Shown: in pieces, positions 3-53,236 of the stretch
How positions within the stretch are numbered: position 1 is the first letter of the stretch
Layout of the letters: each line of letters begins with the position of its first letter
NCBI GenBank assembly: GCA_949296425.1
Contig: CASFPN010000039.1
Span: 1 to 53,278, forward strand
Reading direction: 5' to 3'
From: an uncultured bacterium
GTDB taxonomy: Bacteria; Cyanobacteriota; Vampirovibrionia; Gastranaerophilales; Gastranaerophilaceae
Length of the DNA: 53,278 bases
Program-made: the position numbers and the translations under genes
The notes under the pieces: generated by a model
The model's input: only the letters and a program-made list of their open reading frames with translations
The model's database searches: none
What the model was told of the DNA's origin: nothing

Positions 3-141
3 ATTGACCAGTTTTATTTTATTATTTTTCGCTATATTTCGTTGGGTTTCATTTTGCCTTTGCTCCCCAAATGCTCCCCAAATTGCTCCCCAAGAGTTAA
101 ATAATGCGATAGTTATCGTGTTTGGAGCAGGTGACGGGAAT
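3..141. repeat. attL: attL, left copy of the 139-bp att repeat
   Basis: This block is identical to the one at 53043-53181. Its right end (123-141) is the 3' end of tRNA-Gly, covering the acceptor strand and part of the T arm. The rest is the sequence lying just downstream of the tRNA. It holds three copies of the decamer TGCTCCCCAA (61-70, 72-81, 84-93). After base 141 the sequence diverges from the tRNA, so this copy is the phage/host junction lacking the 5' part of the tRNA. The left border is set by only two mismatched bases because the window starts there. Confidence 0.93.
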
Positions 142-6400: not shown

Positions 6401-9400
6401 AGCAACTAAAGACTTATTAATTTCTCCAAAGGCATAAGCTAAATCGCAAGCTAAATTATATGCTTCTTCTGCCATTTCTTTTGTAACAACTTCTAATTTT
6501 TCAAAATTATCAGCATATTCTTGAGCAGTTAAATTGTAGTCTGCAGTTCTGAAGCTTCTAATTTGCTTAGCAAGTTTTTTATTAGCCTCAATTATGGTTG
6601 AAATATTTTGAGCATTTATAGTTGATAAAGATAAAATATCTTGATTAAAATCGCTGATTTGTTTTTGGTATCTTTCAAAAACTGACGCTTGTTCAATTTT
6701 ATTAACAGCATTTTCTATTTTGTTATTGACTACTTTTTCACTCGCACCTTGATCAATGTTTTCATCTGCTTTGAGTTGTGAAGCATTGTCCTCCATTATA
6801 TCTTTAACTTCTTGTTCATCAACTTTTGCAATTTGGACTTCGGTGTTGTCACTTATAATCTTTTTTTCGTCTACATCATACTTATATTTTTTAAGCATGA
6901 AAGACTTGTAATTATTTTTAAAGTTATTGGCTTCTTCAAAAATATTACCTATGTCAAAATCATCAAAACTCCAATCTTCACTATCAAATTCTTCGCCGTT
7001 TTCTTTTGCCATTCTTCTAGCGTAAGATTCGCTTTTCTTATAAAACCTATTTAAGTCTGCATTATTATTTTCGACTAAATAATTATAGAGTCTTTGAGCG
7101 TTAATAAAATCTTGTTGAGTGAATTTTTTAATATTGCCTTTTTTAAGATAAGAATTCATTTTCTCTAATCTTTCAGTGAGAGATTGAGTCATTGATTCAA
7201 AAGTGTCGTCATAAGTTAAATCTTCAAGAGTTAAGCTATTAATATAACGCAAAAAGTTTAATACCATATTGTCATTGACATTAATAGCAAGTTTATTATA
7301 TTTCTTTGCGTTTTCGTCATAGCACTCAAAATCAGTAGTGTCAAAATCCGAATCGTTAATATCGTAAACATTTGACCTTTTATACTTATAATCAGGTTTT
7401 ATTTCTTCACTAATATCGCCTCTTATTAGATACTCAACACTATCTTTATCATAAATATTTCTTGAAAAAGAAACTCCGCTATTAATTGCTAATCTCCATG
7501 CTCTATATCCAGCACTTCTAACTAAGCGAAGAGTTTTGCTAAGTTCATCCAAAAATAAGTTATCAGCACTAGATTTATTAATTGTTTTTAAAAGAGTTTT
7601 GATAGATGTAAACAATCTATTTGGCTTAGTTAATACATTAAAAACTCTGCTAATGTCGCTTGTTTCATTAAAAACAGCATTTTCTAAATAATTAGCAAAA
7701 AGTTCGCTTTTGTACTTTTCATTATCTATGTTTTCATTAAAATTGTAGGTTCTTTCAAAAGATTCTTTGTTTTCTTTATACCAATCAGTTTGCTTAATTT
7801 CCTCAACTATTTGGTCTCTTTCGGCTTCAAGAAAATTATCATATATAACGTGACCAACATATTCATGTGCGAACACTTTAGCATAGCTTGTTTTATTAGC
7901 GTATTGCCTATTAATATAAATGGTATTTTTCTTACGGTCGTATCTAGCATGTTCACCGTTTTCTCCACCATCAAAAAACATTATTCTAATGTCAGGATTA
8001 AATTTTCCAAAGTTTTTATCTTGAAAATTATAAATTTGATATTTGACAATTTCTTCTTGAACTGTGGTGTTTTTCATTGAATTTATATATTCATTTGCTA
8101 CACTAAGCAACTCATTTCTGCGATCATCAGTTAAATCCTCAAAAATAGTGCTTAAATTTGTTAAGCGCTTGCCAAAAGAAATTTTCTCTTCATCAGTCAT
8201 TGCTTTATCAAGACGAGAAAAATCTTCCCTAATATTTTTAATGTCTTCACTTAAAGTTAATTCATTCTTAGAAGAAGAGTGTTTCAAATATGTTCTTAAA
8301 TGTTTTCTTAAAATTTTGTCGTCTCCAGCCAATTTAACTTGGGACGCGTTCTCAAAAGATGGGACAAAATCATTTACTTGTTCAACTATCTTTCTATTAA
8401 CCCATTTTTCTTCACCTTCTTCAATTATCGTAGAAATTGGATCAATACGATTTTTCTTTATGTTTTCAAGAACAGTTATATTTGCACCATTCTTTTTTAA
8501 TTCTTCGTATTGATTATTATAAACTTCAAGTTCTTGTTTGAGTTTTTTAAAGCCATCTTCAACACTAATTCCAGTCAATGCTTTAAAATATTGAGCCTTT
8601 TCTTTTTGAGACATTTTATCTATTAAAGCATTATGTTGCTCCAACTTATCAGTCATATCCTTTACTATGGCTTGTGCTCTTTCATTATATTGAAGAGAGC
8701 CATCACTAGTTATTTCTGTTGCTTGTCCTTTGTTTTGCAAGTCGATAAGCTTGTTGTAATCTTCTTGCACACCAGCCAATGTATTTTGTGCAGCAAAACC
8801 TGTTTTGCCACCAACTCTTTTTCTTCCAATCGCAATGTTTGCTCCACCCATAATACCTGCTGTAATAGCGCCCAAGGTAAAGCTTTCTACCATGCTGCTT
8901 ACATTATATTCATCATAATTTTCTTTTACAGATTTACCGTTATAAATTGATTTAACTAAAGGCTGCAAAACATCGCTAAAAACTTCTTCAGCGCCTTCTT
9001 CGACAGCCTCAGCAGTAAGTTGCCCGAGAAAGTTTTTGCTAACTTGCTTTCCGAAAAAGCCACCAACACTATTAGGTAATAAATTTGCAAGTTTGCCTGT
9101 AGATATTCCAACTTTCCCAGCAATTTTACTACCTATTCCACCTAATGCAGAAAAAACATATTCACTAGCACCTTCAACGGCACCACTAGCAACACCATAA
9201 AGCATAACATTGCTTAAGTCTGCTTCTGGGTTTTCTTCTAAAGCACCAGAAACACTACTACCTGCAGCACTTAACGCCATTGAGCCAACACTTATTAATT
9301 TGCTACCGATTGTAGCACCAATGCTTGTCCCACCAGTCGCAATTCCTAACGCAATTGAAGGAACCATATTTGCGATGTTTTCTATAACAGCATTATATCC

Positions 9401-14614: not shown

Positions 14615-15565
14615 CTAATTGACATTTAAAACCGCTACTGTTTGAGAAGGCTTGTATTTAGGACTATTGACTTTTAAATTGACTGTAAAATATACATTTC
14701 CTGATAAAGTACTTGGAATTTCAATTGACAAACCATGATTTGCAGCAACCATATGTCTAAGTGTAATTATTTCCCAAGTTTGACCGTTTAGATAATACAA
14801 GTCAGCATATACTGTCATATCATTAGGATTTTGAACAACAACCACTTTCTTGCCACCCTCAATAGCATAACTAATTGTTGCTTGAGCAAGTTGTGTTCTA
14901 AAATCAAACGCCTCGGAAGTTTCACCAGTTGCTCCCCCTTCAATTTCAAAAACAACTTTTATAGTCCCAGCCCATGGAAACTCCTCAGTTGCCCATGAAG
15001 TGCTAACATTAAAGGCGGAAGTTTTTCCATCTATAGTTCTCTCGTCATCATATCCAACTAAAAGAGCACCTTCTGTATCGTAAACATAGTAAGACATTGA
15101 AACATCTTCTAAATTATCATTTCTGACATCAAATATTATTGATGTCCTATCTGCCAGTGTTGAATTTCTAACATTACTTATGATTGGCGCTGTAATACTA
15201 TCTTTAGCAAACTCAAAGTTTTGCGTCATATAACAATTAGCTGGTATCTCGTTAGTCTCAATTTTAAATGTTGTTTCTTTTACTCCATCACCAACTACCT
15301 TATAGCCTTCATGAGGAACTGCGGTTAATTTTATCGTGTCACCATAATAAACTGTTGCACCACTATTAATAGACCCAGTTGTTGAATAAGGCGATAACTT
15401 ATTAGTCCTTGTGATTGAGTAGCTACCTCCTACTAAAACTGAACCAGTGATTGTTAATTTACCTAAAGGTTTAGTCCATAAATAAGCACCATTACTCTTA
15501 CGAGTTGCTTCATAAACTTCAGTGCCTTTAATAATAAGTTGTTTTACATTAGCGAAGTCTATCAT
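14615..15565 (-). CDS. Ig-like/adhesin-domain tail protein
   Basis: 316 residues. The start (MIDFANVKQLIIKGTEVYEA) resembles the N-terminus of baseplate and fibre-tip proteins in Firmicutes phages. Residues 35-110 look like an InlB B-repeat-type beta domain (SGATVYYGDTIKLTAVPHEGY). The rest is predicted Ig-like beta sandwiches. It overlaps the fibre gene by 4 bases (ATGA), so it is translationally coupled and probably sits at the fibre tip for host binding. Confidence 0.55.
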   Translation of the reverse strand: MIDFANVKQLIIKGTEVYEATRKSNGAYLWTKPLGKLTITGSVLVGGSYSITRTNKLSPYSTTGSINSGATVYYGDTIKLTAVPHEGYKVVGDGVKETTFKIETNEIPANCYMTQNFEFAKDSITAPIISNVRNSTLADRTSIIFDVRNDNLEDVSMSYYVYDTEGALLVGYDDERTIDGKTSAFNVSTSWATEEFPWAGTIKVVFEIEGGATGETSEAFDFRTQLAQATISYAIEGGKKVVVVQNPNDMTVYADLYYLNGQTWEIITLRHMVAANHGLSIEIPSTLSGNVYFTVNLKVNSPKYKPSQTVAVLNVN

Positions 15566-18081
15566 ACATCTATTATCAACTTTCCATCTTCATCAATTGA
15601 AAAAGCGTCCTTTTTAATATATGTTTGTTCAACCCATTCTTCACTGGCTATTTGTCTAGTGGATCCATAAGGAAATGATGTTGTTCCGAATTGAACATGA
15701 GACCATGTATTCACCACACCAGGAACAGAAACTGTTATTTCTCTTTGATCCTCTGCATTTTTTGAATTTATCATCAAACCACTTTTTCCATCACCGTCTT
15801 GGCAAATATTGTTCATATTTCTACCACTTGCGGAAAAGTTTAATACTCCATTTATAGTTCCACCAGCAAGAGGCAAATATTTATTATCAGCCCAAGTTTC
15901 TGTTGCTAGCTTTTGGTTGTTTGAATAAATTCCATCTTCTTGAATTTTCGCAACTAGAGTCTCGTCAGAATCACTGATATGTTTGTAAAAATTCCAAACT
16001 CCTCCATACTCATAAAAATTGCAATAATTAACATTTGAAGTACCGAGTACTATTGAGTGGCAATCTTCGTCCGTTCCTGGCTCATTACTCCATTTTGGAC
16101 CTTTAAGAACGCCACTAAAAGAAGGATTTTGAATTTGAAGATAATTACCAAGATCTGAACTATTAGCAAGTTTCACCCATGATGAATTATCAATACTTTG
16201 TCCACTTACGTTCTTTCTATAATAAACAGAATCTCCGTTTTCGGTCGGAAGAGCCAATTGAGAAATCCAATGTGTATTATCAGAACCAATCCAATCCATT
16301 GATAAAACATGCCACCAAGCATGCTCTGTTGGTAATATTGCGCCATTATTATCGCTATTGCACATTGCAGCCCAATAACCTGTTGTACCAGTAGGAACAG
16401 ATTCTCCACGTGTAACTTTAAAAGTATTTTCCCCAAGAGAAGACGTATTAACTTTTCCATCTAAACTACTTTGTAAGTTTGTGATATTAGCAATAGTGTG
16501 TGTGTGACTAGAATTAGCCTTACCGCTTAACTTATTATCAATTTCAGTTTTTGTGTAAGATGAAGCATTAACTATTTCAGTTACTGCACTGACAGTTGGA
16601 ATAGAGGTTGCTCCACTGCCTTGCATACCAGTGACAACTCGACTAGAATCCACCTTTCCATTTAAACTATTTTGTAAGTTGGTAACATCACTTATTGCAT
16701 GCGTATGATTAGTGTTGGCTTTGCCAGTCTGAAGTGCTGCAATTGCGTCAGCGTTTGCCTTACCTTTATTACCTGCATATGCAGTCGAAGCAGTTTCACC
16801 TAACGCTAATGATGAGCTGATTTCTACATAAGTTGTACCACTCCACCTATATTGCTTATTTGTATCTTCAGCGATATAAATTTTGCCATCTTCACCTGTT
16901 GCAGGGAATGAATTACGATTTGAATAATCAAGAATGTCATCTACATAACTAGGCAACTGTGAAGAAGGGACTTTGCCACTACTATCAAGAGAGGCGAGTC
17001 CGTTTACTGAGCCCTTTAATTCAAGCTCAATAAACATAGCAACGCCACTTTTAGTTAAAACATCATCATTTCCAGCGCTTACTCCGTCTGAATAAATGTC
17101 TTGTTTATCCAATTTGCTATTAAGTTCAGTTTGCAAGCCGCTTATATTAGAAATACTGTGACTATGAGATTTTGCTGCATAATGAATATCTGCATAATTT
17201 TTTACCGCGTCACCTCTTGCGGCTGCATATTGATAAAGGTTATTTCCATAATGCGTGCCGACGCTTCCTGCTTGAATAACTACTTGTCTGCTGATGTTAT
17301 AAATATCTGAACCATCATAATTTAGATAGAGATTTTCTTTTTCACAATTCCCATCAGAATCAGGTGTGCCTATTCCACATACACCACGAGTAACTAATCC
17401 AGCTTGGGCGGCTGAACCACCAAACACGATTCCGTTTGAAGCATACATTTGCCCTAAAATCTTATATAAAGTTTTGCTAGAACCAATAACTGTACCTGAT
17501 ACATCAGTTTTTTCTAAATATTTGCTATGAACGTGGTTTTTAGCAGAATATTTTTCTTCTAAACTTGTGTTATTTTCAAATATTGTTGAAGCATAAAGAT
17601 ATTGAAAATTATGAGTACTGTCACCTAATGAACCTACGTTATTTTTATTTGGCTTAAAAGCGCTTTCATCAAGTTTATATCCGTTTGAAGTACCATCACC
17701 TTTTAATCTATATTGGATGTTATCCACATCAAAAAATAAAGACGAACCGCTTTCTGGTTGTTGCCAAACCATTGCTCCAGCAGTGTTTGAAGCTCTAAAA
17801 AGGAGTCTTGTTGTTCCTTCTTTTTGTTCGAATTTTACCATTGAACCACTATTAGCACCTTCTTTGCCAAATGAAATTGCTCCGGTTTGCGAAGAACCAG
17901 TTTTAACTTTTACTTTATAGACTACATTTTCATCACCCTGAGAAAATGCAGTGGAATCGTCAATTGTCAATTTGCCTGTTAATGTTCCACCAGTTAAAGG
18001 TAAATAATCGCCAGTTATCTCAGCAGCACCTATTAATGCTTCAACTTCTTCTAACGACGGTATTTTCTTTTGAATAGGCAT
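15562..18081 (-). CDS. Long tail fibre with HxH repeats
   Basis: 839 residues from the ATG placed 7 bases after GGGAGG; a start five codons earlier lacks a site. An N-terminal attachment segment leads to DYLPLTGGTLTGKLTI. The shaft has repeated units of the type NHTHAISDVTNLQNSLNGK. It includes at least four HxH motifs (NHVHSK, KSHSHSIS, NHTHAIS, SSHTHTIA), which in other phage fibres coordinate metal along the trimer axis. A second LPLAGGTINGVL repeat lies near residue 760. It starts directly after the stop of the preceding fibre-region gene. Confidence 0.8.
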   Translation of the reverse strand: MPIQKKIPSLEEVEALIGAAEITGDYLPLTGGTLTGKLTIDDSTAFSQGDENVVYKVKVKTGSSQTGAISFGKEGANSGSMVKFEQKEGTTRLLFRASNTAGAMVWQQPESGSSLFFDVDNIQYRLKGDGTSNGYKLDESAFKPNKNNVGSLGDSTHNFQYLYASTIFENNTSLEEKYSAKNHVHSKYLEKTDVSGTVIGSSKTLYKILGQMYASNGIVFGGSAAQAGLVTRGVCGIGTPDSDGNCEKENLYLNYDGSDIYNISRQVVIQAGSVGTHYGNNLYQYAAARGDAVKNYADIHYAAKSHSHSISNISGLQTELNSKLDKQDIYSDGVSAGNDDVLTKSGVAMFIELELKGSVNGLASLDSSGKVPSSQLPSYVDDILDYSNRNSFPATGEDGKIYIAEDTNKQYRWSGTTYVEISSSLALGETASTAYAGNKGKANADAIAALQTGKANTNHTHAISDVTNLQNSLNGKVDSSRVVTGMQGSGATSIPTVSAVTEIVNASSYTKTEIDNKLSGKANSSHTHTIANITNLQSSLDGKVNTSSLGENTFKVTRGESVPTGTTGYWAAMCNSDNNGAILPTEHAWWHVLSMDWIGSDNTHWISQLALPTENGDSVYYRKNVSGQSIDNSSWVKLANSSDLGNYLQIQNPSFSGVLKGPKWSNEPGTDEDCHSIVLGTSNVNYCNFYEYGGVWNFYKHISDSDETLVAKIQEDGIYSNNQKLATETWADNKYLPLAGGTINGVLNFSASGRNMNNICQDGDGKSGLMINSKNAEDQREITVSVPGVVNTWSHVQFGTTSFPYGSTRQIASEEWVEQTYIKKDAFSIDEDGKLIIDV

Positions 18082-18083
18082 TT

Positions 18084-18890
18084 TTAAGCCTCCCAAGTAA
18101 ATGTAATTATTCCTTCAGAAGTTAAGCCATCTGACAATGATACTTCCATAGCGTCTGCTTCTAATAACGCAATTCTTGAAGAATGCTCGTTTACAGTATT
18201 TGATAAAGTTTGGAAACTAGTTAATGTAGCATAGTTTTGCAATACTTTAGATAAAAATGCTGGAGTGAATGCAGTAGTGTCGTTAGTTGCGTATTCATTA
18301 GTATAGTTTGCTGCTTTAAATAACTTGACCATACCAAAAGTGTTAAAAGTTGCTTCGATTAAAAAGCCAGTCAAAGATACAGTGAATATTTCCACACCTT
18401 TTCCGTTTTTAAAAGACAATGTGTTGTCTTCTAAGTCAACACCTTGAGTAACTTCATCAGTAAATTTGTTATTTACTTCTGATTTTGTATAGTAAGAAGA
18501 TAAATCAACTTTCTCGACTTCAAGTTGATAAAGTTTGTAATAACCAATTGTATAACTGTCAGCAAACGCTGTTCCACTGGTTGGTAATTGGTCACTACCT
18601 TTATTTGCTACAACTTCAGCAACATACCAGTCAGGCACTTGCGTAGCACCAATATAAATATTGTCGCCAACTTGTAAATCTGTGTTGCTCATGGCTGAAA
18701 TAGCAGCATTTGCCGCTGCATTAGTTGCATAACTTACAGCTCTGCTTCTACCTTTAGCTAGTGCTTCAACCTGTGTTAATTTTGTCTCAAGCTCAGCAAC
18801 AGTTATCGATGTGCTACCTGTAATCTCAGTTTTAAAATCTTCTAAACGAGCAAGTACCTCTTCGCCAGAAAAAACATTAATATTTGCCAT
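18084..18890 (-). CDS. Tail-fibre-region protein
   Basis: 268 residues. The N-terminal helix and a middle beta region are followed by SYYTKSEVNNKFTDEV, the YTKxEVNNKF spacer typical of fibre shafts, and a C-terminal helical stretch (LTSFQTLSNTVNEHSSRIA) that could trimerise. It immediately precedes the long fibre. A fibre-attachment or receptor-binding accessory subunit is likely. Its AGGAGG site is strong. Confidence 0.6.
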   Translation of the reverse strand: MANINVFSGEEVLARLEDFKTEITGSTSITVAELETKLTQVEALAKGRSRAVSYATNAAANAAISAMSNTDLQVGDNIYIGATQVPDWYVAEVVANKGSDQLPTSGTAFADSYTIGYYKLYQLEVEKVDLSSYYTKSEVNNKFTDEVTQGVDLEDNTLSFKNGKGVEIFTVSLTGFLIEATFNTFGMVKLFKAANYTNEYATNDTTAFTPAFLSKVLQNYATLTSFQTLSNTVNEHSSRIALLEADAMEVSLSDGLTSEGIITFTWEA

Positions 18891-33345: not shown

Positions 33346-33363
33346 AATGATATAAAATCACAT

Positions 33364-33388
33364 AAAAAAAGCCCTGTTAATAGAGCCT
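33364..33388 (-). terminator. Terminator-like hairpin in the late leader
   Basis: On the minus strand GGCTCT pairs with AGGGCT (two G-U pairs) and is followed by TTTTTTT. It lies about 20 bases before the first late gene, so any late transcript from upstream would meet it first, as in antitermination control. Confidence 0.5.
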
Positions 33389-33394
33389 AATTTG

Positions 33395-33431
33395 TTACTT
33401 ATATAATAATTATTAATAATAATATAAGTAA
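33395..33431. promoter_or_regulatory. 37-bp AT-rich palindrome upstream of the late genes
   Basis: Perfect 10-bp arms TTACTTATAT and ATATAAGTAA flank a 17-base AT core. It is placed just upstream of the leader hairpin. A regulator-binding site is plausible. Confidence 0.5.
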
Positions 33432-33488
33432 ATTTTCTGGAGAAAAATGTGAGGGTGTAAAAAGTGGGGAAATTTTGAGGGGGACATC

Positions 33489-33515
33489 ATTATACGCAAA
33501 CACGGGGGTAGGCAA
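33489..33515 (-). promoter_or_regulatory. Possible late promoter
   Basis: On the minus strand a perfect TATAAT (33489-33494) is preceded by TTGCCT (33510-33515) with a 15-base spacer, shorter than ideal. If used, transcripts would read the palindrome and leader hairpin before the terminase genes. Confidence 0.35.
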
Positions 33516-34045
33516 AAAATGGTATGGGGGGGGTACCTAAAAATTGGCTAAAATCTTTATTTTTTTTGCTCCCCAACGTCGGAAAAATACGCATTTTATC
33601 ATATTTGGTGCAATTCCTAGAAACTGCACTTTAAGACAAGATTAAAAGTTATACAACAAATGGCTATTTTTAGGCTGTTTGTTGTATATAAAATATAGTC
33701 TTTTTTCAACCTAATATAATTTAACAAAAAAGAAACATAATAGTATTAATAATATTTACGATAATTATCTTATAAATTGTACTAGAAATTATCTTAAATA
33801 GCGCCTAATTTTAGATACTTAAATACACTAAGAAAAATCTATTAAAATTTATGCGAGTTTTTTAAATTGATGCGAGAAAAGAGAAAAAACTTAAATAATA
33901 CGATAATTAGGCGACTTTTTGGGCTTTGGTTAGATTTTTCATTTTTGCTCTTCTTTACATGTTGCGTTGGTTATGGCTGGCAACCTTAACTGCCTAGCCC
34001 TAATTCGTAGGGCTTTAAAAAAGTTTCACAAAAGGATTTAAAAGT

Positions 34046-34624
34046 ATGAAACAAAAAACCATTAACACCATGAGCGCTGAACAATTAACAGCCATCGCTC
34101 AAGCCGTCGCGCTTGCTTTAGCAAGTCAGCAACAACAAGCCGAAACCACAACCAAAACAAGAGCCAAAAAGACAGCCGAAAAACCACTAGAAGACAAAAC
34201 AATTTTAGAGGTTTTAGAAGAGAAAAAAGGCGTTGAAAATTTCCCTTTAATCACACCTCAAAAAACAAGCACCACCGAAAAAGTACTAGCGATAATTCAA
34301 CATCGTAAAGAGTTAACCGGTAAAGAAAAATTAGACGAAAGCAACGACAAAATTTTTGATTTAATCTTTAGCGATTTATTAAAAGCCTATCACAATTACA
34401 AGAGTTTTAAGGCGCAAGACGACAGCGAAAACTCTAAATATTGGTTAAATCAAATTTCGCTTTATATCTTAACATTTAAAACATTTGTAAAAGACGAAAC
34501 CGCGCAAGCATTACAAAAGAAATATAAGTTATATTTTAGCCACTATATCACTAGTGAAAACTTTAAAGATTTAATCACTTATAGAAGCGCTTTAATAAAA
34601 TTATCTAGCGAGGTTAAACAATAA
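34046..34624 (+). CDS. Unknown first gene of the + strand island
   Basis: 192 residues. The N-terminus is Ala/Gln-rich (AIAQAVALALASQQQQAE), followed by a Lys/Thr linker and a helical C-terminal domain (about 90-190). Synonymous codons such as GCC and ACC are used more than in most of the phage, as in the ArdC gene. It has an AAAGGA site. No family was recognised. Confidence 0.5.
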   Translation: MKQKTINTMSAEQLTAIAQAVALALASQQQQAETTTKTRAKKTAEKPLEDKTILEVLEEKKGVENFPLITPQKTSTTEKVLAIIQHRKELTGKEKLDESNDKIFDLIFSDLLKAYHNYKSFKAQDDSENSKYWLNQISLYILTFKTFVKDETAQALQKKYKLYFSHYITSENFKDLITYRSALIKLSSEVKQ

Positions 34625-34752
34625 TGAAACACATTATAAAAATTACATTTAAAGCACTTTTAAAAGGTGGATTTACAAGGGCTCAGGCGGTCAATTATTT
34701 ACTTAAATATTATGCTCTAGCCGACATTCTAGACGCAATAAAAAGCAAGTAA
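34624..34752 (+). CDS. 42-residue basic peptide
   Basis: Starts with TAATG overlapping the preceding stop. The product is basic and helical (MKHIIKITFKALLKGGF, then a second helix YLLKYYALADILDAIKSK). It lies before the terminator-like hairpin at 34756. Translation is inferred from coupling only. The function is unknown. Confidence 0.45.
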   Translation: MKHIIKITFKALLKGGFTRAQAVNYLLKYYALADILDAIKSK

Positions 34753-34755
34753 AAG

Positions 34756-34780
34756 AAAGGGCTATAAAAAAGCCCTTTTT
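34756..34780 (+). terminator. Terminator-like hairpin 1 between the first genes and ardC
   Basis: GGGCT pairs with AGCCC around a 7-base loop (extended by A-T pairs) followed by TTTTT. Confidence 0.6.
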
Positions 34781-34808
34781 AAATGCTCATTTTATAGTTT
34801 AATCGTAT

Positions 34809-34840
34809 AAGGCTTTAACCTAGAAAATTAAAGCCTTTTT
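34809..34840 (+). terminator. Terminator-like hairpin 2 upstream of ardC
   Basis: A perfect 10-bp stem AAGGCTTTAA/TTAAAGCCTT with a 9-base loop is followed by TTT. A third small stem (GCGTT/AACGC, 34846-34858) follows. The series suggests attenuation or a small RNA in front of ardC. Confidence 0.6.
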
Positions 34841-34950
34841 AAATAGCGTTTTTAACGCGTTTACAAGCGCTTTTTTGTTTGGATGGTGTAGTTTCGACGC
34901 GAGAACGCAATTAAAACGCATTTTATTTTTTTGAAAGGTGTTAAAAATTT

Positions 34951-35958
34951 ATGAATGAAAAGCAACAAAAAGTATTAGATCGTGTGAATAGCTTAATTTT
35001 AGAGCGCATAAAAAATGGCGAAAATTTTCTGGTAAAGAAATACACAAAAGTCGACCTATTAGACGGCTATGTGAACGAGCCACGCAATTATGTTTCTAAT
35101 AAGCCTTACACAGGGGTCAATCGTGCACTACTTGAGCCAGGCTATTATGTATCGTTTAAACAAGCCAAAGAATTAGGTGGCAAAGTTAAAAAAGGCGCTA
35201 AGGCTTCTATGGTTTATGGCTTATTTACACACGAGTATGTTAAATACAAATACATAAGTGAAAATGGCGAAACCATCGAAAAGACAACCACAAAAGACGG
35301 CTTTGAGAAATTAAAACTCAAAAATCCGGAAATCGAATATGAAATCATCGAAGAACGGACAACCACAAGACACGCTTATTTTTATGTGTTTAATATTCGA
35401 GACTGTGAAAATCTTAAAAAACTTAATCACACAGTTATAAAAACAATCCCTGACCCAAAAATACCAACACAAGAGTTAGACCCACTAGCCGAGTTTATTG
35501 TTAAGTTAAACACAGAAATCAAGCCAAATCCAATACACTTACAACCAAATAGTGTTATTGAATGCTCTAGTTATTCTAGTGAAACGGACACAGTTTACAT
35601 GAAAAATTTCTTTGAGTATGAAGATTCGAGTGATTATTATGACAACTTATTTCATGAGTTGAGCCATGCTACAGGACACGAAAGTCGTTTAAATAGAAAG
35701 TCGTTAACAACCGAAGCAAGATATGGCGACGACATCTATAGCAAAGAAGAACTCGTTGCACAAATCTCATCTAACTATTGTATGCAACGCTTACATTTAC
35801 TTACTTACAAGCAATTAGAAAAAAGTAATGAATATGTAAAGTCATGGTACAACCACTTAAGCGAGCCGCTTAAAAAAGACCCTGCTTTCTTAATCAAAAT
35901 TTTTTCTAGTGCTGAAAAAGCAAGCAACTATTTATTTTCAAACGGAGGTAATGAATAA
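34951..35958 (+). CDS. ardC: ArdC-like antirestriction protein
   Basis: 335 residues. The N-terminal ArdC-type ssDNA-binding domain is shown by PYTGVNRALLEPGYYVSFKQ and AKELGGKVKKGAKA. The middle VFNIRDC matches the usual YxVFN segment. The C-terminal zincin has HELSHATGH at residues 235-243 followed by SRLNR, and EELVAQI later supplies the third ligand region. ArdC proteins from plasmids protect incoming DNA from restriction. It is the leading enzyme of the + strand island, with a GAAAGG site at a long spacing. Confidence 0.85.
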   Translation: MNEKQQKVLDRVNSLILERIKNGENFLVKKYTKVDLLDGYVNEPRNYVSNKPYTGVNRALLEPGYYVSFKQAKELGGKVKKGAKASMVYGLFTHEYVKYKYISENGETIEKTTTKDGFEKLKLKNPEIEYEIIEERTTTRHAYFYVFNIRDCENLKKLNHTVIKTIPDPKIPTQELDPLAEFIVKLNTEIKPNPIHLQPNSVIECSSYSSETDTVYMKNFFEYEDSSDYYDNLFHELSHATGHESRLNRKSLTTEARYGDDIYSKEELVAQISSNYCMQRLHLLTYKQLEKSNEYVKSWYNHLSEPLKKDPAFLIKIFSSAEKASNYLFSNGGNE

Positions 35959-36977
35959 TGGCAAACACAACAACAATTTTGGAATGCATTCTTAACGGAA
36001 ATTTAGAAGAAGCAAGAGTTAAAGCTGAACAAGTTTTAAATGGGGAAAGCACAGCAACTGCTGTTAAAGAAAACAAAACCGACCAAGAAAAGCCAAGTGA
36101 AGAAGAACAAAGCACTTCTACTGAAGAGCAAAAACCAAAAAGTGAGCAGTCAAAACCAAAGCCAAAATCACAACCTAAACCAAAACCACAACCAAATATG
36201 AAGTCGTACATTAAACCTAAAATTTATAACGATGTAAAAAGTTGTGTTGAAAACAAGGTTGCTGTGCTTTTAACAGGTGAAGCCGGAACAGGTAAAAACG
36301 AGATGTGTAAAAACATCTCGCTTGACCTTGGTTTAGATTTTTATTTCTGCAATGCAATTAATGACATATTCCAACTTACAGGCTATGGAAACGCAGATGG
36401 CGAATATGTAAAAACACAATTCTATGACTTTTGTGTAAATGGTGGCGTTTTTATGTTTGATGAAATAGACGCTAGCGACCCACAAGCATTAATTGTATTT
36501 AACAGCGCTATTGCAAATGGTTATTTTGACTTCCCAGTTAAAGGGCGAGTTCAACTCAATGAAAATTGCCGTTTTATTGCTTGTGCAAATACAAAAGGTC
36601 AAGGCGCTTCATTAAGTTATGTAGGCAGAAATCAACTTGATGCCGCTACTCTTGATAGATTTGTTATGTTCAGACTTGAATACGACAAAGAAGTTGAAAA
36701 GAAAATTTCAAACAATAACACTGACCTTGTTGATTTTATTGAGTGTTTTAGAGACGCAGTTAATAAAGCAGGCTCATTACAAGTTATTACTTCTTATCGT
36801 GCTATTACAGCAATCACAAAACTTGAGAACATTATGGACTTAACAAAATTAATAAAATGCACAATTACAAAGCATTTAGATAAAGACGACATAAGATGTA
36901 TTTGCAACAACTTTAATACTGCAATAGATAACAAATATGTTGACGCTTTATTTAAACTAGGAGGTGTTAGAAAGTGA
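35958..36977 (+). CDS. MoxR/CobS-type AAA+ ATPase
   Basis: 339 residues. A Lys/Pro/Gln linker (about 45-80) follows a short N-terminal helix. The Walker A GEAGTGKNE is near 107-115, Walker B VFMFDEID near 163-170, sensor FIACANT near 200 and LDRF near 227. AAA+ proteins of this class remodel partners together with VWA-domain proteins. It starts one base into the ardC stop with a GGAGG site and overlaps the next gene, which is VWA-like. Confidence 0.85.
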   Translation: MANTTTILECILNGNLEEARVKAEQVLNGESTATAVKENKTDQEKPSEEEQSTSTEEQKPKSEQSKPKPKSQPKPKPQPNMKSYIKPKIYNDVKSCVENKVAVLLTGEAGTGKNEMCKNISLDLGLDFYFCNAINDIFQLTGYGNADGEYVKTQFYDFCVNGGVFMFDEIDASDPQALIVFNSAIANGYFDFPVKGRVQLNENCRFIACANTKGQGASLSYVGRNQLDAATLDRFVMFRLEYDKEVEKKISNNNTDLVDFIECFRDAVNKAGSLQVITSYRAITAITKLENIMDLTKLIKCTITKHLDKDDIRCICNNFNTAIDNKYVDALFKLGGVRK

Positions 36978-37834
36978 TTAAAAAAGAAATTCGTCCTGAT
37001 ACAACATTTCCTAGTAAAATTATTTTATATAAATTTAATAGCGTTTTCGAATTCTATGACCATCTCACTGAAAAATTTAACAAATTTTATCTTCAAGTTT
37101 TTAAAACTTTAATTGGTGAAGATGATGAGCGGATTGGTGAAAATTACGAAGAATGTATGCAAGCCCTTAAATGCGGCTATACAAATAACGTAAATGAGTT
37201 GTCAAAAACAATTAGACTTACTGAGAAATATTTTTCAGAAGGTCAAGCAAACAAGTCAAGGCTAGGAAATTATTATTGTGGCTCACGACCAAACGTAGCG
37301 AATTATGTTCAGGGTTTACCTTTAAACATGATGAGACTTAAAAAGACGCCACAACCTAGAAAAATCATAAACATAATTTTTGACTGTGCAGTCAGTTGTG
37401 TCGAGGAAAAAGAAGATGTATGCAAAATGTTTAATAATATTTTAGCTTACATTTATAAAGTTTGTTTAAGAGGCTATAAAGTAAGACTTTCTCTACTAGC
37501 ACCATTTAATGTTAACAAAACACTAGAAGCACCATTCTTACTTATTAAACTTAAAGATGAAGCCGAACCTTTTAATTTAACTAAATTGTCTTACCCTTGT
37601 ACTTCAGTAAGCTTTTTTAGAGCATTTTGTGTCAAAGCCTTTTATGACATTTATTGGCGATATATTGAAAACAAACAAACAAAAGACAGTTTTGATGCTG
37701 GTGGCGGCGTTCCTTTGTACCGAGTAAATAGCGAAAAAAGAAACAGCCTTTTAAGCGCTATCTCTGAACCTAATACAACTGCTCTTTATGTAAATTTATA
37801 CAGTGATTTAGAAAGGACATTTAACAATTTATGA
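36974..37834 (+). CDS. VWA-like partner of the AAA+ ATPase, degenerate MIDAS
   Basis: 286 residues, GTG start with AGGAGG, overlapping the ATPase gene by 4 bases. Residues about 93-115 (GSRPNVANYVQGLPLNMM) and about 129-150 (KIINIIFDCAVSCVEEKED) resemble VWA-like proteins paired with CobS/MoxR ATPases in phages. The metal site reads D-x-A-x-S instead of D-x-S-x-S, so metal binding may be weakened or lost. This would be the substrate-recognising half of a two-component remodelling machine. The target is unknown. Confidence 0.55.
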   Translation: MIKKEIRPDTTFPSKIILYKFNSVFEFYDHLTEKFNKFYLQVFKTLIGEDDERIGENYEECMQALKCGYTNNVNELSKTIRLTEKYFSEGQANKSRLGNYYCGSRPNVANYVQGLPLNMMRLKKTPQPRKIINIIFDCAVSCVEEKEDVCKMFNNILAYIYKVCLRGYKVRLSLLAPFNVNKTLEAPFLLIKLKDEAEPFNLTKLSYPCTSVSFFRAFCVKAFYDIYWRYIENKQTKDSFDAGGGVPLYRVNSEKRNSLLSAISEPNTTALYVNLYSDLERTFNNL

Positions 37835-38124
37835 GAAAATTAAAAGCATTTATTTCGTTCTTAGGGGAGTATTTTAAAATGCTCCCTTACAGAAAACAAT
37901 TTCACAGAAATCTTGTAGCGTTTTATTTACATTTCAATGGCGACAAAGAAAAACTAGAAAAGTTTATTAAAGGCGAGCAAGAATTACCAGATTTTCAAGT
38001 TGATGAAATCTTGATTGGTGTAAACCTCAAAGATTATATAACGCCCGCTTACCCATTTGCATTTGCATATTATTGCTATAAGAAAAAGTTAGATGTAAAT
38101 AAAGAAATTTGCATAAAAAAATAA
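37831..38124 (+). CDS. Unknown small protein
   Basis: 97 residues, overlapping the VWA-like gene. The phrase AFYLHFNGDKEKLEKFI resembles IYLFCNGDSKKAVKLM in the next gene, suggesting remote paralogy. The function is unknown. Confidence 0.5.
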   Translation: MRKLKAFISFLGEYFKMLPYRKQFHRNLVAFYLHFNGDKEKLEKFIKGEQELPDFQVDEILIGVNLKDYITPAYPFAFAYYCYKKKLDVNKEICIKK

Positions 38125-38256
38125 AGTTTTGCAAGGTTTTTAATTAAATACATATACATATTAAATAATTATATTAGGTCTAAATTTTTAAAGACGAATA
38201 TCGTAAAGATAACAATTTTTTAATACACATTTTATTCAATTTATGGAGGTTTTTAT

Positions 38257-38526
38257 ATGTCAAACAGTAAAAGATTTACGGCAAAACAAATTATTATTGG
38301 TATTTATTTATTTTGCAACGGAGATTCAAAAAAGGCAGTTAAATTAATGCGCGAACACTTTGATATAACTGACTATTGCACCGAAAACATTGACTTTATT
38401 AATCGTTTAGAACCACTTGTTTACTCAGTCTTAGATGAAAATTATCCAGGTTTTTACAAAATCTTACCATACCCACCATTAATTGTTCTCAAAAGTACTA
38501 CTGAATGTTTTGGAGAGAGTAAATAA
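38257..38526 (+). CDS. Unknown small protein, possible paralogue of the previous gene
   Basis: 89 residues with a YLxxNGDxxK phrase like its neighbour. It follows a 132-bp AT-rich gap and has a strong ATGGAGG site, so it could also be read from an internal promoter that I cannot define. The C-terminus is Pro/Tyr-rich. The function is unknown. Confidence 0.5.
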   Translation: MSNSKRFTAKQIIIGIYLFCNGDSKKAVKLMREHFDITDYCTENIDFINRLEPLVYSVLDENYPGFYKILPYPPLIVLKSTTECFGESK

Positions 38527-38528
38527 TT

Positions 38529-38762
38529 ATGCTTTACGATAGAGAAATTAGAAACAAACTAACTGGATTATGGAGCCGCTTAAACAATGCAACTGCTAAA
38601 TATGAAATGCACGCTATATCAAGTAAAGAGTTTAAGTTTAAATTAGACTACATCAAGTTAATCGCTGATAACTTAGATATAGGATTTGATGGCGACTATC
38701 AAGACTACAAAAATCTTATAAAAGCAATTAATGATACGTTAACAATTTATGAAATTAACTAA
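38529..38762 (+). CDS. Unknown small helical protein
   Basis: 77 residues, helical and close to neutral, directly after the preceding gene, with a GGAGAG site. No family was recognised. Confidence 0.5.
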   Translation: MLYDREIRNKLTGLWSRLNNATAKYEMHAISSKEFKFKLDYIKLIADNLDIGFDGDYQDYKNLIKAINDTLTIYEIN

Positions 38763-38773
38763 GGAGTAAAAAT

Positions 38774-39070
38774 ATGACTTATTTTAACCAACTTTTAGCA
38801 TTCAACAATACCCGTTTTAATCTGCTTGATTTAGATATTGCTAACGAATTATTAGCCATATCAAACAAAAAACTTATTGAGTTAAATAGCGATAAAAATG
38901 CACAAGAAGAATTTAATAAGGCTTGTGGATTAATTAAAGGCGCTTATCTTGAAGTTGATTGTGATATATCGCTTTCAACTGTTGTTAATGCTTTTTTTGA
39001 AGCAATGCAAGAAAACGACAACGACATATCAAGAATTGATGAAGATGTAATCACTCAAAAAATTTATTAA
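38774..39070 (+). CDS. Unknown acidic protein
   Basis: 98 residues, acidic (ENDNDISRIDEDV near the end), helical. It has an AAGGAG site with good spacing. It belongs to the run of small acidic products of the island. Confidence 0.5.
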   Translation: MTYFNQLLAFNNTRFNLLDLDIANELLAISNKKLIELNSDKNAQEEFNKACGLIKGAYLEVDCDISLSTVVNAFFEAMQENDNDISRIDEDVITQKIY

Positions 39071-39081
39071 GGAGCAAGAAC

Positions 39082-39267
39082 ATGGCAATAAACGAATTAG
39101 CAGAATTTTTAGAAATCTACTACTTCTATGACGCAAGAGATAACGACATTGACGTTTTAGGTGAAGAATACAAAAGCGAAATGAAAAGTCTTGCAAGGAA
39201 AATTAATAAAATACTCAAGCAAGATAAAACAAAGACACTAGAAAGCGTATTAGATAACTTATTTTAA
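39082..39267 (+). CDS. Unknown acidic small protein
   Basis: 61 residues with an acidic N-terminal half (DARDNDIDVLGEEY) and a basic segment (KSLARKINKILKQDK). It has an AAGGAGC site. No family was recognised. Confidence 0.5.
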   Translation: MAINELAEFLEIYYFYDARDNDIDVLGEEYKSEMKSLARKINKILKQDKTKTLESVLDNLF

Positions 39268-39276
39268 GGAGGCTTT

Positions 39277-39561
39277 ATGAAAGAAAAATTTAAACAAATG
39301 GATTACGAGCAATTAATTAATTTTGTACGTGATAACGATACTTATAGTGAATGTTATGACGAACAGGAGTTTTTAGATTATATTATCGACCGATTGCGAT
39401 ATGGCTTTTATGAGCAAGCCAAAGATTTAATAGATATATTGCAAAAGCAACGTTATCATTTTGACGATGGTTTTAACTACTGGAAAAACGATTGTGGAAC
39501 GTTTATTCCACTGCTTACAGAAGAAGACGTTTTAGATAATTTTGATTATTTATTTGAGTAA
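39277..39561 (+). CDS. Unknown strongly acidic protein
   Basis: 94 residues with a large excess of Asp and Glu over Lys and Arg, rich in Tyr and Phe (CYDEQEFLDYIIDRLRYGFY). Composition recalls DNA-mimic inhibitors but that is only an analogy. It has an AAGGAGG site. Confidence 0.5.
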   Translation: MKEKFKQMDYEQLINFVRDNDTYSECYDEQEFLDYIIDRLRYGFYEQAKDLIDILQKQRYHFDDGFNYWKNDCGTFIPLLTEEDVLDNFDYLFE

Positions 39562-39577
39562 TTTAGGAGGCAATCAC

Positions 39578-39853
39578 ATGACAGTTAAAGACGCAGTTTA
39601 TAAAGTTTTTTGCGATTGTATAGACGAAGAATTTTTAAACGAAATTGTAAAGTCATTAAAACAACTAGAGTTTTGTAAATCCAAGATGAGCGAAGATTTT
39701 TTAGAAGAGACATCAGAGTATTTAACTACTGAACCAGATATGGCTTGGAAGTTTCTAGCTTATTATCAAGAGCCTGAATTTTGTAATTACGAAGAAATGA
39801 TAGAAAGTCTTAAACAAAGTTTAAAAGAAATTTACGATACTTATCATAACTAA
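39578..39853 (+). CDS. Unknown acidic protein
   Basis: 91 residues from the ATG with TTAGGAGG at good distance; an upstream ATG in the same frame lies inside the previous gene and lacks a site. It is acidic and helical with several Cys (FCDCIDEEF). It belongs to the same class as its neighbours. Confidence 0.5.
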   Translation: MTVKDAVYKVFCDCIDEEFLNEIVKSLKQLEFCKSKMSEDFLEETSEYLTTEPDMAWKFLAYYQEPEFCNYEEMIESLKQSLKEIYDTYHN

Positions 39854-39950
39854 CAATATTCGACAAAGTTTAAAGTCGTTAAAACTTGACTGCTAGGAAG
39901 TTAAGTAGGTTTACGACATGGCAAAGAAATAAAATTCAAAGGAGTTAAAA

Positions 39951-40298
39951 ATGGCATTCAATTACAATTTATTTTTAATCGAAGTTAGACAGAGTTTCTG
40001 CAACAGTATAGATAGCCGAGTTTTAAAAAAAGCTGCTTACGATAACAAAGAATACAGGAAATACATAAATTATTTCATGGACGATTTAAAAGATTCAGGT
40101 TTCATCTTTGAAAAAGTCATGCCTAAAGGACTTAATGAAAGTCGTTATATGATAGTTTATATTGACGAAGACGAAGGCTACCCTATTAGAAGAGAAATAT
40201 GCTACTTCCGTTATGTTACAGGTATATATGGTGGCTGCTTAGCACAACTTCATGACTTAAAAGACAAATTGATAGAAAGTAGAGGCAATATTTGGTAG
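39951..40298 (+). CDS. Unknown protein
   Basis: 115 residues, mixed alpha/beta (SRYMIVYIDEDEGYPIRREI). It follows a 97-bp gap containing a short inverted repeat (AAGTTT/AAAACTT) and has a good AAAGGAG site. No family was recognised. Confidence 0.5.
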   Translation: MAFNYNLFLIEVRQSFCNSIDSRVLKKAAYDNKEYRKYINYFMDDLKDSGFIFEKVMPKGLNESRYMIVYIDEDEGYPIRREICYFRYVTGIYGGCLAQLHDLKDKLIESRGNIW

Positions 40299-40310
40299 GA
40301 GAAAACAGCA

Positions 40311-40730
40311 ATGAAAACAATATCTTTAGTAGGTTTAAAGTTTAACGGGTTTAATTATTTAGATCTAAATTGTGAAGAATACCACTTACTTGGTTTTAAA
40401 GGTAAAGGCGTATATTTAATTGTCAACATATTAGCCTTAGAAGAGGCTACATCAGTTAACGTTTCAACAAAAGACGATTTTACAGAGCAAGAACAAAAGT
40501 TGCTTTCAAAAATTCTTAAGAAGCTTTACGCTGCAAAAGATAACGACTACATGATATTTTTTGCTAAAAAGGGAAACGAAAATATTATTCGCCTTCTTGA
40601 AAAAGTTGGAACCATAAATCCATCAAATCGTGCATACGATGAATATTATACCGAAGAAAAAATAGCAATATTCGATAATTTTCTTACATATTTTAACTTG
40701 GCAGATTTTGGAATAATAGGGAGTAAATGA
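40311..40730 (+). CDS. Unknown protein
   Basis: 139 residues, beta-rich at the start (SLVGLKFNGFNYLDLN) and helical later (EQEQKLLSKILKKLY). It overlaps the next gene. A TAGGAG site precedes the ATG. No family was recognised. Confidence 0.5.
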   Translation: MKTISLVGLKFNGFNYLDLNCEEYHLLGFKGKGVYLIVNILALEEATSVNVSTKDDFTEQEQKLLSKILKKLYAAKDNDYMIFFAKKGNENIIRLLEKVGTINPSNRAYDEYYTEEKIAIFDNFLTYFNLADFGIIGSK

Positions 40731-40732
40731 TT

Positions 40733-40975
40733 ATGAAATACTATTTAACATGTTTAGAAAGGCAAGAGATTAGAGAATTACTAGCAAAAGGCTATTACGT
40801 TTATCAAATTAGATGTAATCCAGATTGGCATGACACAATAGAAAAAAATGTTTTTATTAACAACATGGGCGAAATTATAACCAAAGAGGAAATTGATTTT
40901 AAAAACAAAGACTACGTTTTATATAACGCGTTTTGCAAGAAAAACAAAAGCGTTGAATCAATAGAAGAACTTTAA
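40733..40975 (+). CDS. LPD28-like small protein
   Basis: 80 residues, taken from the second ATG because the first is 3 bases from the GGGAG site. The order GYYVYQIRCNPDW, TIEKNVFINNMGEIITKEEI resembles the large polyvalent protein-associated domain LPD28, where a similar run includes an ATIEKRV-type segment. That domain is linked to conjugative elements and polyvalent proteins. This is an attribution from memory of the pattern. It ends the island before the bidirectional terminator. Confidence 0.5.
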   Translation: MKYYLTCLERQEIRELLAKGYYVYQIRCNPDWHDTIEKNVFINNMGEIITKEEIDFKNKDYVLYNAFCKKNKSVESIEEL

Positions 40976-41005
40976 AAGGGCTATCATTACGATAGCCCTT
41001 TTTTT
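40974..41005. terminator. Bidirectional terminator between converging operons
   Basis: GGGCTATC pairs with GATAGCCC (loop ATTAC) with AAAA before and TTTTTTT after. It serves the + strand island and the minus-strand early operon. Confidence 0.9.
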
Positions 41006-50443: not shown

Positions 50444-50471
50444 CGAAAAATTTAAAAAATGTTAAATTTTG

Positions 50472-51841: not shown

Positions 51842-51913
51842 ATGACTACATTTTTCAAAACCATTTTTATTTTAACACAAGAGAAAGGAGAAAAATATGG
51901 CAATTTGTTATGA
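51842..51913 (+). CDS. 23-residue leader peptide overlapping the integrase start
   Basis: An ATG with AAAGGAG 9 bases upstream encodes MTTFFKTIFILTQEKGEKYG and stops 14 bases inside the integrase gene in another frame. Arrival of ribosomes at the overlapping stop could control integrase translation. It might instead be a fortuitous ORF. Confidence 0.4.
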   Translation: MTTFFKTIFILTQEKGEKYGNLL

Positions 51914-53003
51914 TAGTTCACGTAAGCTTTATTACATTTCTTATAGGTTAACTTTGCCTACAGGCGAAATAAAATCAAGAAAAATAAGAAATACTGAGCG
52001 GACAAGAAAAAGAGTTGTTCAGCAAATTGAACTTGATGAAATTGAAAAAGACAAAGAAAAAATTCTCAAGGGTTATCACAAGAAAAAAGACACTTTTGAA
52101 AATCTCGTAGATATATATTTCAGACAATGTGAACTAACAAAAAAAGATAGCACAAACTACGGCAACAAACTTGTTTTTAAAAATTATATTTTCCCTTGTT
52201 TAGACAAGTCACTTTCGCTTGAAGCAATATTTGAGCCATCCAATATGTTGTCTCTAGTTGGTAAAATAAAAGACCTTTGTAAAACAAAAAACGTGACTAC
52301 AAAGCGTCTTAATATATCAATAACTTTGTTAAGAGAACTTTATGATCAAGCTTTTCAATTAGACTTAATAAGTGCAAATTCATATAACAAAGGCAAATTG
52401 CTTTTAAAACACGACAAAGTTGTAAAAGTTAAAACAGAAAAATTAATGTTTTGGACGCCAGAGCAATTCGACCAATTTATTGCAACATTTGATAAGGAAG
52501 ACCAAAAATGGAAAATGTTTTTTGAAGTTGCATATTGGGGCGCTTTTAGAATTGGAGAAATCCTTGCTCTAAAATGGGAAGATTTTAATTACGAAAAGAA
52601 GACTCTAAATGTAAATAAAACCATTGATAAAAATGGAAAAATATCAACCACCAAAAATAAGGCTAGTATAGACGATGTTGAAATACCTGATAAAATCGCT
52701 GACGAACTATTAGAATATAGAAAATCTTACAACAATCCTTTTGATAGCGATTATATGTTTTTTATAAGACATACTTCACGCACGTCAACAAAAAGAATAA
52801 TGGATAAGCATATCAAAATGGCTAATTTGCCTCACATTAAATTTCACTCATTAAGACATTCAATGGCTTCAAGGATGATTAACGCTGGCGTTTTACCACT
52901 TTATGTAAGTAAGCACTTAAGACACGCCTCAACGCAGCAAACTCTTGATACTTATTCGCACTTGTTCCCTAAAGTTGGTCAAGGAATAATGAACCAAATT
53001 TAG
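51897..53003 (+). CDS. int: Tyrosine integrase
   Basis: 368 residues. An N-terminal arm-binding region (LYYISYRLTLPTGEIKSRKI), a core-binding domain (about 60-170) and the catalytic domain with Arg218 (RIGEIL), His317-x-x-Arg320 (HSLRHS), His343 (RHAS) and Tyr353 (TYSH). It recombines attP with the tRNA-Gly attB and lies next to attR. The AAAGGAG site is strong. Confidence 0.95.
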   Translation: MAICYDSSRKLYYISYRLTLPTGEIKSRKIRNTERTRKRVVQQIELDEIEKDKEKILKGYHKKKDTFENLVDIYFRQCELTKKDSTNYGNKLVFKNYIFPCLDKSLSLEAIFEPSNMLSLVGKIKDLCKTKNVTTKRLNISITLLRELYDQAFQLDLISANSYNKGKLLLKHDKVVKVKTEKLMFWTPEQFDQFIATFDKEDQKWKMFFEVAYWGAFRIGEILALKWEDFNYEKKTLNVNKTIDKNGKISTTKNKASIDDVEIPDKIADELLEYRKSYNNPFDSDYMFFIRHTSRTSTKRIMDKHIKMANLPHIKFHSLRHSMASRMINAGVLPLYVSKHLRHASTQQTLDTYSHLFPKVGQGIMNQI

Positions 53004-53028: not shown

Positions 53029-53065
53029 AAAACTGGTCTTAGATTGACCAGTTTTATTTTATTAT
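53029..53065. terminator. Bidirectional terminator at the attR border
   Basis: AAAACTGGTC (phage side) pairs with GACCAGTTTT (inside the att repeat) in a perfect 10-bp stem with a 7-base loop. On the + strand a T-rich run follows (integrase), and on the minus strand TTTTTT (tRNA). Confidence 0.8.
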
Positions 53066-53181
53066 TTTTCGCTATATTTCGTTGGGTTTCATTTTGCCTT
53101 TGCTCCCCAAATGCTCCCCAAATTGCTCCCCAAGAGTTAAATAATGCGATAGTTATCGTGTTTGGAGCAGGTGACGGGAAT
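53043..53181. repeat. attR: attR, right copy of the 139-bp att repeat
   Basis: Identical to attL but continuing into the intact tRNA-Gly. The repeat keeps 120 bp downstream of the tRNA in addition to its 3' end, far longer than most att cores. The three TGCTCCCCAA decamers lie at 53101-53110, 53112-53121 and 53124-53133. Confidence 0.93.
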
Positions 53182-53236
53182 CGAACCCGCGTAATCAGCT
53201 TGGAAGGCTGATGCTCTACCATTAAACTACACCTGC
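53163..53236 (-). tRNA. tRNA-Gly (TCC)
   Basis: The minus strand reads GCAGGTGTAG TTTAATGGTA at the 5' end and ends CACCTGC TCCA. Acceptor arms GCAGGTG/CACCTGC pair fully, the anticodon stem is CAGC/GCTG with loop CTTCCAA (anticodon TCC), and the T arm is GCGGG TTCGATT CCCGT. The CCA is encoded. The prophage integrated at its 3' end and restores that end. Confidence 0.95.

Follow-up and report, generated by a model that had tools for sequence, protein, structure and literature searches.

We analysed a window of 53,278 bases (contig C39 of a bacterial genome of 2.0 Mb), which as a whole is one integrated temperate phage. A cassette of fifteen plus-strand genes (34046-40975) in this prophage encodes a MoxR-like AAA+ ATPase of 339 aa (35958..36977, plus strand; AAA_5, phrog_249) and, next to it, a NorD-like VWA partner of 286 aa (36974..37834, plus strand) that belongs to DUF7192 (phrog_1909). 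The two form a variant of the MoxR-VWA machines which is widespread in phages and lacks the metal ion-dependent adhesion site (MIDAS). We consider it rather likely that the pair is an autonomous remodelling machine, probably acting early and not as a part of the virion, that stands here beside a plasmid-type ArdC. The main result is that the ATPase leads to NorQ and the partner leads to NorD independently, these being the halves of one machine; each match alone is weaker.

The structures of the ATPase and its partner were predicted from alignments of relatives. When compared with solved structures, the ATPase model was closest to NorQ (Z 19.8) and CbbQ (Z 19.3), about 4 Z units above dynein, Midasin and the sigma-54 activators (Z 15.2 and below). 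Profile searches matched Midasin (8e-18), CobS (1.8e-08) and NorQ (2e-4), and the Pfam domain AAA_5 was recognized with 38.7 bits (1.3e-09) vs the cut-off of 22. The model contains short strands at 143-144 and 150-151 followed by a helix at 154-161, which may correspond to the helix-2 insert beta-hairpin. Together, the AAA_5 module and the similarity of the predicted structure point to the MoxR clade. NCBIfam gave no usable match, and PADLOC yielded no known defence system, only weak hits to generic ATPase models.

In the sequence libraries the partner is found as DUF7192 or phrog_1909, and none of them labels it as VWA. Its model has a predicted local distance difference test score (pLDDT) of 76 and a predicted template modelling score (pTM) of 0.76. 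The top five Foldseek matches of this model in the PDB are all NorD of NorQD (best 3e-4). After realignment, Z-scores were 8.4-6.6 for NorD (184 residues aligned with a root-mean-square deviation (rmsd) of 7.9 in the best case), 6.0-6.8 for the MIDAS domains of Rea1/Midasin, and 4.7 and below for other VWA proteins. In BFVD the first matches were DUF7192 proteins, followed by phage CobT/VWA proteins (E about 1e-4). A preliminary description of this DNA had called the partner VWA-like, which proves right by structure only, with NorD put first by the fold search. Our literature search found no paper naming DUF7192.

To describe the neighbourhoods, 33 loci with the pair were collected from IMG/VR and GTDB with flanks of up to 10 kb. 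The ATPase and DUF7192 genes are adjacent in 31 of them, with the ATPase first in 21 loci and the partner first in 10; in the two other loci the ATPase is near the contig end. Some of the loci are near-identical, which leaves fewer independent cases; 30 non-redundant partners were obtained, reference phages included. Annotated phages with the pair are Staphylococcus P108 and ISP, Listeria LP-124, LP-026 and CKA15, Mycobacterium OhShagHennessy, Lactobacillus 3-521 and Enterococcus vB_CECAV_04, and the partner is annotated in these phages as "hypothetical protein". Partner homologues beside the ATPase were detected by hmmsearch (1.8e-82 to 3e-22) in Enterococcus, Kayvirus P108, Lactobacillus, two Listeria lineages and Mycobacterium, and tblastn found the ATPase in 421 phage records. 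That the genes remain adjacent when their order is inverted, and do so across unrelated phages, speaks strongly for a joint action of the two proteins. The pair of AAA+ and VWA-like proteins with overlapping genes, as first described, is therefore retained: the genes overlap by 4 nt, the models are NorQ/NorD-like, and the adjacency recurs.

The pair is phage-borne. Searching 289 relatives of the host for DUF7192 gave two marginal fragment hits, and only the window's own copy was found among 382 genomes of the class and 386 of the phylum; this near-absence places the gene with the phage. A role of DUF7192 as a host chaperone was considered and rejected, as the host's relatives have essentially none. 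Single-sequence pattern searches of IMG/VR returned no close relatives of the DUF7192, TerL or ArdC proteins of the window.

Conserved motifs show which parts of the machine were kept. The ATPase of the window has the Walker A motif GEAGTGKN and the Walker B motif FMFDEID. The DE pair of Walker B is present in all 29 non-redundant ATPases, and R224 and R234 are invariant. By comparison with the VWA motif, the MIDAS sequence DxSxS is complete in only one of the 30 non-redundant DUF7192 sequences, and the protein from the window has DCAVS. Conservation in the family is highest at G103, V108, P109, P116 and M119 (each kept in 27-30 of the 30 sequences), which belong to a loop with the consensus GFxPxVPNAIxGxPxSM (residues about 99-122), located at the position of the NorD finger. 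In the model this loop is a low-confidence hairpin, directly before the first VWA strand, in which strands 99-101 and 120-122 enclose a short helix (108-112). In the NorQ-NorD complex the finger of NorD (its residues 403-448) is inserted into the pore of NorQ, and the MIDAS residues of NorD are required for the target and dispensable for ATPase binding (PMC13036017, PMC9976466). Since the loop is conserved and the MIDAS is lost, DUF7192 seems to have kept the predicted motor-coupling part and dropped the metal-dependent grip.

By analogy with NorQ/NorD, six ATPase subunits would form a ring, and the DUF7192 adaptor would sit on it with its finger-like loop pushed into the pore. ATP hydrolysis would turn or pull the adaptor and so remodel a bound target protein. 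Having no MIDAS site, the adaptor must hold its target metal-free; the grip might be provided by another surface, perhaps by the conserved HxSxxRRxGF segment of DUF7192. Most likely the pair would act at an early stage of infection or serve as a moron, and its target would be a non-structural complex of host or phage. The plasmid-type ArdC in the shared operon would protect incoming DNA from restriction, as in plasmids. Read as NorQ/NorD-type, a pair of genes without annotation acquires a mechanism that can be tested, and the MIDAS-less pair offers a natural experiment: do MoxR-VWA machines depend on the MIDAS for holding their targets? The carriers include Kayviruses used against Staphylococcus aureus and Listeria phages of the P100/A511 type used in food. 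As far as searchable papers show, the literature holds no functional test of the pair.

The most serious alternative, which we nevertheless regard as unlikely, is a virion-assembly chaperone: the pair would fold or assemble a head or tail component. This has published precedents in the proposals for p618/p892 of the Acidianus two-tailed virus (ATV) and for jumbo phages (PMC4124505, PMC7824862), and in two surveyed loci, L011 and L035, the major head gene is found on one side of the pair and the MuF/portal/TerL genes on the other. However, the pair and the structural operon are encoded on different strands in the window and in several relatives: the pair is opposite to the head genes both here and in L011, and to neighbouring structural or integrase genes in L005, L006, L011 and L035 (in L006 the adjoining integrase shares the strand of the pair, and it is the lysis/tail genes that run in the other direction; L005 is also near an integrase). 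No structural gene recurs beside the pair. In the Listeria phage CKA15 the pair is CKA15_175/176 (L064, OR088597.1 112940-122788) and starts 4 bp after CKA15_174. According to the CKA15 study, expression of CKA15_173-174, directly in front of the pair, is maximal at 5 min, and CKA15_175/176 are not among the 29 listed virion proteins (PMC12282133); ATV p618, by contrast, is a main constituent of its virion. The annotation of Kayvirus ISP places a host-type promoter directly upstream of the ATPase gene; the main text of the Kayvirus transcriptome papers does not name the ATPase. The strand, CKA15 and ISP evidence speaks against a virion part, and we infer an early action of the pair. The published RNA-seq and virion proteomics of CKA15 are a ready data set for the timing of the pair.

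Several observations count against an early-acting remodelling machine of the NorQ/NorD type. The Ser/Thr of Walker A is replaced by Asn (GKN) in 23 of the 29 non-redundant ATPases, which makes hydrolysis uncertain; with Asn in most members and an intact Walker B in all, the motifs would be compatible with slow or altered hydrolysis. A GKN Walker A is unusual for an active P-loop ATPase. The Z-scores of NorD (7.8-8.4) are near the aligner background for models without a clear match, at an rmsd of about 8 Å, and the segment at the finger position has a low pLDDT (52-64). The DUF7192 profile gave no match against PDB sequences, and because of this the VWA assignment is based on the predicted structure and the pairing of the genes. 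Finally, the early timing of CKA15_175/176 is drawn from the genes directly upstream and not from the pair itself.

A more ambitious version of the remodelling machine is distinctly doubtful. It would be a general phage takeover machine, that is, a metal-free MoxR-VWA remodeller, produced early by many unrelated phages, that dismantles or rewires a conserved host complex and is coupled to ArdC through the operon here. If this were true, DNA protection and host remodelling would go together in this prophage.

The ArdC protein (335 aa; 34951..35958, plus strand) has the complete ArdC architecture, with an ArdC-N ssDNA-binding domain and a zincin-like metallopeptidase with the motif HELSH. The Pfam matches are ArdcN (6.9e-12) and MPTase-PolyVal (3.5e-21), the protein also belongs to phrog_7245, and in the PDB it matches the plasmid ArdC 6i89/6sna (1.7e-15). 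ArdC had been named at the outset as the first enzyme of the cassette, and Pfam and PDB agree with this; the genes of two hypothetical proteins, hyp1 and hyp2, precede it. Judging by its family only, the expected role is the shielding of entering DNA from restriction. ArdC relatives occur in 886 plasmid records vs 57 phage records, and the best plasmid homologues share about 30% identity with the ArdC of the window. ArdC-N is mostly a domain of conjugative elements (Iyer et al. 2017, PMC5512222).

The preliminary description had combined these genes into one anti-defence or takeover island with the pair as its machine, in which ArdC, the ATPase and VWA proteins, an LPD28-like protein and acidic proteins would act jointly at phage entry. 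We consider this improbable. In anti-defence, small acidic proteins are a recurrent theme, and the genes share an operon and overlap. In addition, polyvalent proteins show a link between LPD28 and MPTase domains (PMC5512222), and jumbo phages fuse a metallopeptidase to VWA (PMC7824862). However, the proposed co-conservation did not emerge from the survey: in the flanks of the 33 loci no homologue of ArdC, hyp1, LPD28 or the small genes could be detected, and the 97-aa protein encoded directly behind DUF7192 has none adjoining other pairs. No third gene family recurs beside the pair, none being found in more than 3 of 117 neighbours, and hence the third component that defines the MoxR-vWA ternary conflict systems (VMAP, iSTAND) is absent as well. 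Zincin-like neighbours are rare (HExxH proteins in 3 of the 117, about 0.9 expected). The hosts of the phage records with ArdC (57) differ largely from those of the records with the ATPase (421), most ArdC relatives are carried by plasmids, and a strong terminator (34754-34780) lies inside the supposed island. The neighbourhood of ArdC and the pair is a local assembly and not a conserved system. A coupling of metallopeptidase and VWA as a general rule was also tried and not seen in the same set of neighbours.

Other features of the surveyed neighbourhoods deserve mention. Large head-morphogenesis proteins adjoin the ATPase-DUF7192 operon in two loci (L035:14079-17327 and L011:13509-16493); an ADP-ribosyltransferase domain was shown in the L035 protein, and the L011 protein is its homologue. 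ADP-ribosylglycohydrolases are among the neighbours in three surveyed loci.

Very improbable is an auxiliary metabolic role of a CobS/CobT-like pair in host cobalamin synthesis, including a hijack of CobN, which is suggested by the usual annotation of phrog_249 ("porphyrin biosynthesis"/CobS), by CobS among the profile matches of the ATPase and by the CobST hypothesis for tailed viruses (PMC8651126) but fails here because a CobN/Mg-chelatase large subunit is missing from the host genome (controls were positive), and is opposed by the recognition of NorQ and NorD as best structural matches and by the loss of the MIDAS site.

The genes of the cassette have ribosome-binding sites and short or overlapping junctions, and both flanks are on the minus strand: the TerL, portal and major head protein genes (33088 down to 26685) on the left and the replication module with RecE, RecT, DnaD, SSB and resolvase genes (49969 down to 41004) on the right. 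This agrees with the initial observation of a gene run opposite in strand to both phage modules. The base composition is alike in the cassette (31%) and the flanks (32%). The overlaps between ardC and the ATPase gene (1 nt), within the pair, and between the VWA gene and the gene of the 97-aa protein (4 nt) suggest coupled translation. At the end of the cassette we found the predicted bidirectional terminator (40974-41002; 12-bp perfect stem, -17.5 kcal/mol, T runs on both strands), which is common to the cassette and the convergent resolvase gene. A second, bidirectional terminator-like hairpin is internal (34754-34780, -12.9 kcal/mol) and separates hyp1-hyp2 from ardC; its minus-strand form was found by a generic scan, and the T run of the plus strand was read directly. 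Such a strong terminator implies that the cassette comprises at least two transcription units. Thus the plus-strand run from 34046 is confirmed as it was described, and its interpretation as a single unit is not, the first two genes being cut off. The generic scan gave no excess over shuffled sequence either for terminators (4 vs 3.9) or for promoters (25 vs 34).

The first gene, hyp1 (34046..34624, plus strand), encodes a basic protein of 192 aa that belongs to no family and has no phage homologue (tblastn, 50,697 phage records); it overlaps by 1 nt with hyp2 (34624..34752, plus strand; 42 aa, basic). Behind the pair ten small proteins are encoded, all on the plus strand: the 97-aa basic protein (37831..38124), an 89-aa near-neutral protein (38257..38526), a 77-aa protein (38529..38762), acidic proteins of 98 aa (38774..39070, isoelectric point (pI) 4.2), 61 aa (39082..39267, pI 4.65), 94 aa (39277..39561, pI 4.2, charge -13) and 91 aa (39578..39853), proteins of 115 aa (39951..40298) and 139 aa (40311..40730), and the LPD28-like protein of 82 aa (40727..40975). 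The 91-aa gene starts from the ATG at 39578 behind AGGAGG, not from the TTG at 39542. Four of the ten are strongly acidic (charge -4.5 to -13.4, computed for the 91-aa protein on the reading from 39569), one is basic (+5.7) and the others are near neutral. At least eight small, mostly acidic proteins had been expected; the number holds and the prevailing acidity does not. The LPD28 assignment, also made earlier, passes marginally, with 28.0 bits vs the Pfam gathering cut-off of 27.0. The 139-aa protein has no homologue among the 50,697 phage records, and no paralogous pair was found among the small proteins.

The prophage is delimited by a 139-bp perfect direct repeat, with attL at 3..141 and attR, the second copy, at 53043..53181, where it overlaps the 3' end of tRNA-Gly (53163-53236, minus strand). 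The integrase gene is at 51897-53003, a repressor-like gene is at 50459, and the tail genes are at the far left of the window. The 10-mer TGCTCCCCAA occurs on the plus strand at 61, 72, 84, 255, 53101, 53112 and 53124, inside both attachment sites and directly beside one of them, and these copies are likely integrase arm sites. One additional copy at 33567, rarely expected there by chance, is in the non-coding stretch upstream of the cassette. This stretch (33346-34045) of 700 bases separates the cassette from the divergent packaging module and has no convincing gene. It contains G-runs and hairpins and could hold control sites for both directions; Rfam found only tRNA in the window and no family in this stretch. 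The late operon is closed by an open reading frame of 3161 aa (494-9979, minus strand), whose sole Pfam match is LPD38, a large polyvalent protein associated domain (residues 2782-2939, 1.2e-26); its product is probably an injected or internal head protein. The 844-aa tail fibre (15562-18096, minus strand) has three stretches of Phage tail repeat (PF12789).

Among known systems, ArdC of the plasmid pSa (6i89/6sna) has the same full architecture of ArdC-N and zincin metallopeptidase as the protein of the window, whereas the latter is phage-borne and in an operon with the AAA+/VWA pair. From the CobS/CobT cobaltochelatase the pair is set apart by the host genome, which contains no CobN-Mg_chel partner. 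ATV p618/p892, involved in extracellular tail development, is likewise a viral MoxR protein with a VWA partner (PMC4124505), but p618 is a virion component and CKA15_175/176 are missing from the virion proteins listed for CKA15. The phage CobS/CobT-type and jumbo-phage MoxR-vWA pairs (PMC8651126, PMC7824862) also consist of an AAA+ protein and an adjacent VWA protein in tailed viruses; their partners are mostly about 500-860 aa long and annotated as VWA, a MIDAS is reported for some and a fusion to a metallopeptidase for others, whereas DUF7192 is short and MIDAS-less and its VWA domain is seen only by structure. With the MoxR/VWA dyads NorQD, CbbQO and RavA-ViaA the pair shares the adjacent VWA partner (31 of 33 loci), and DUF7192 departs from them in the MIDAS motif DxSxS. 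The differences from NorQ/NorD, which inserts metal into nitric oxide reductase, are that the DUF7192 pair is phage-borne, its 286-aa adaptor has no large N-terminal domain, its MIDAS is degenerate, and the Walker A of most members has Asn. NorQ and NorD are at the same time the closest solved structures for both partners independently. The genes are adjacent in both cases, and the conserved element of DUF7192 lies ahead of the first VWA strand, where NorD has its finger.

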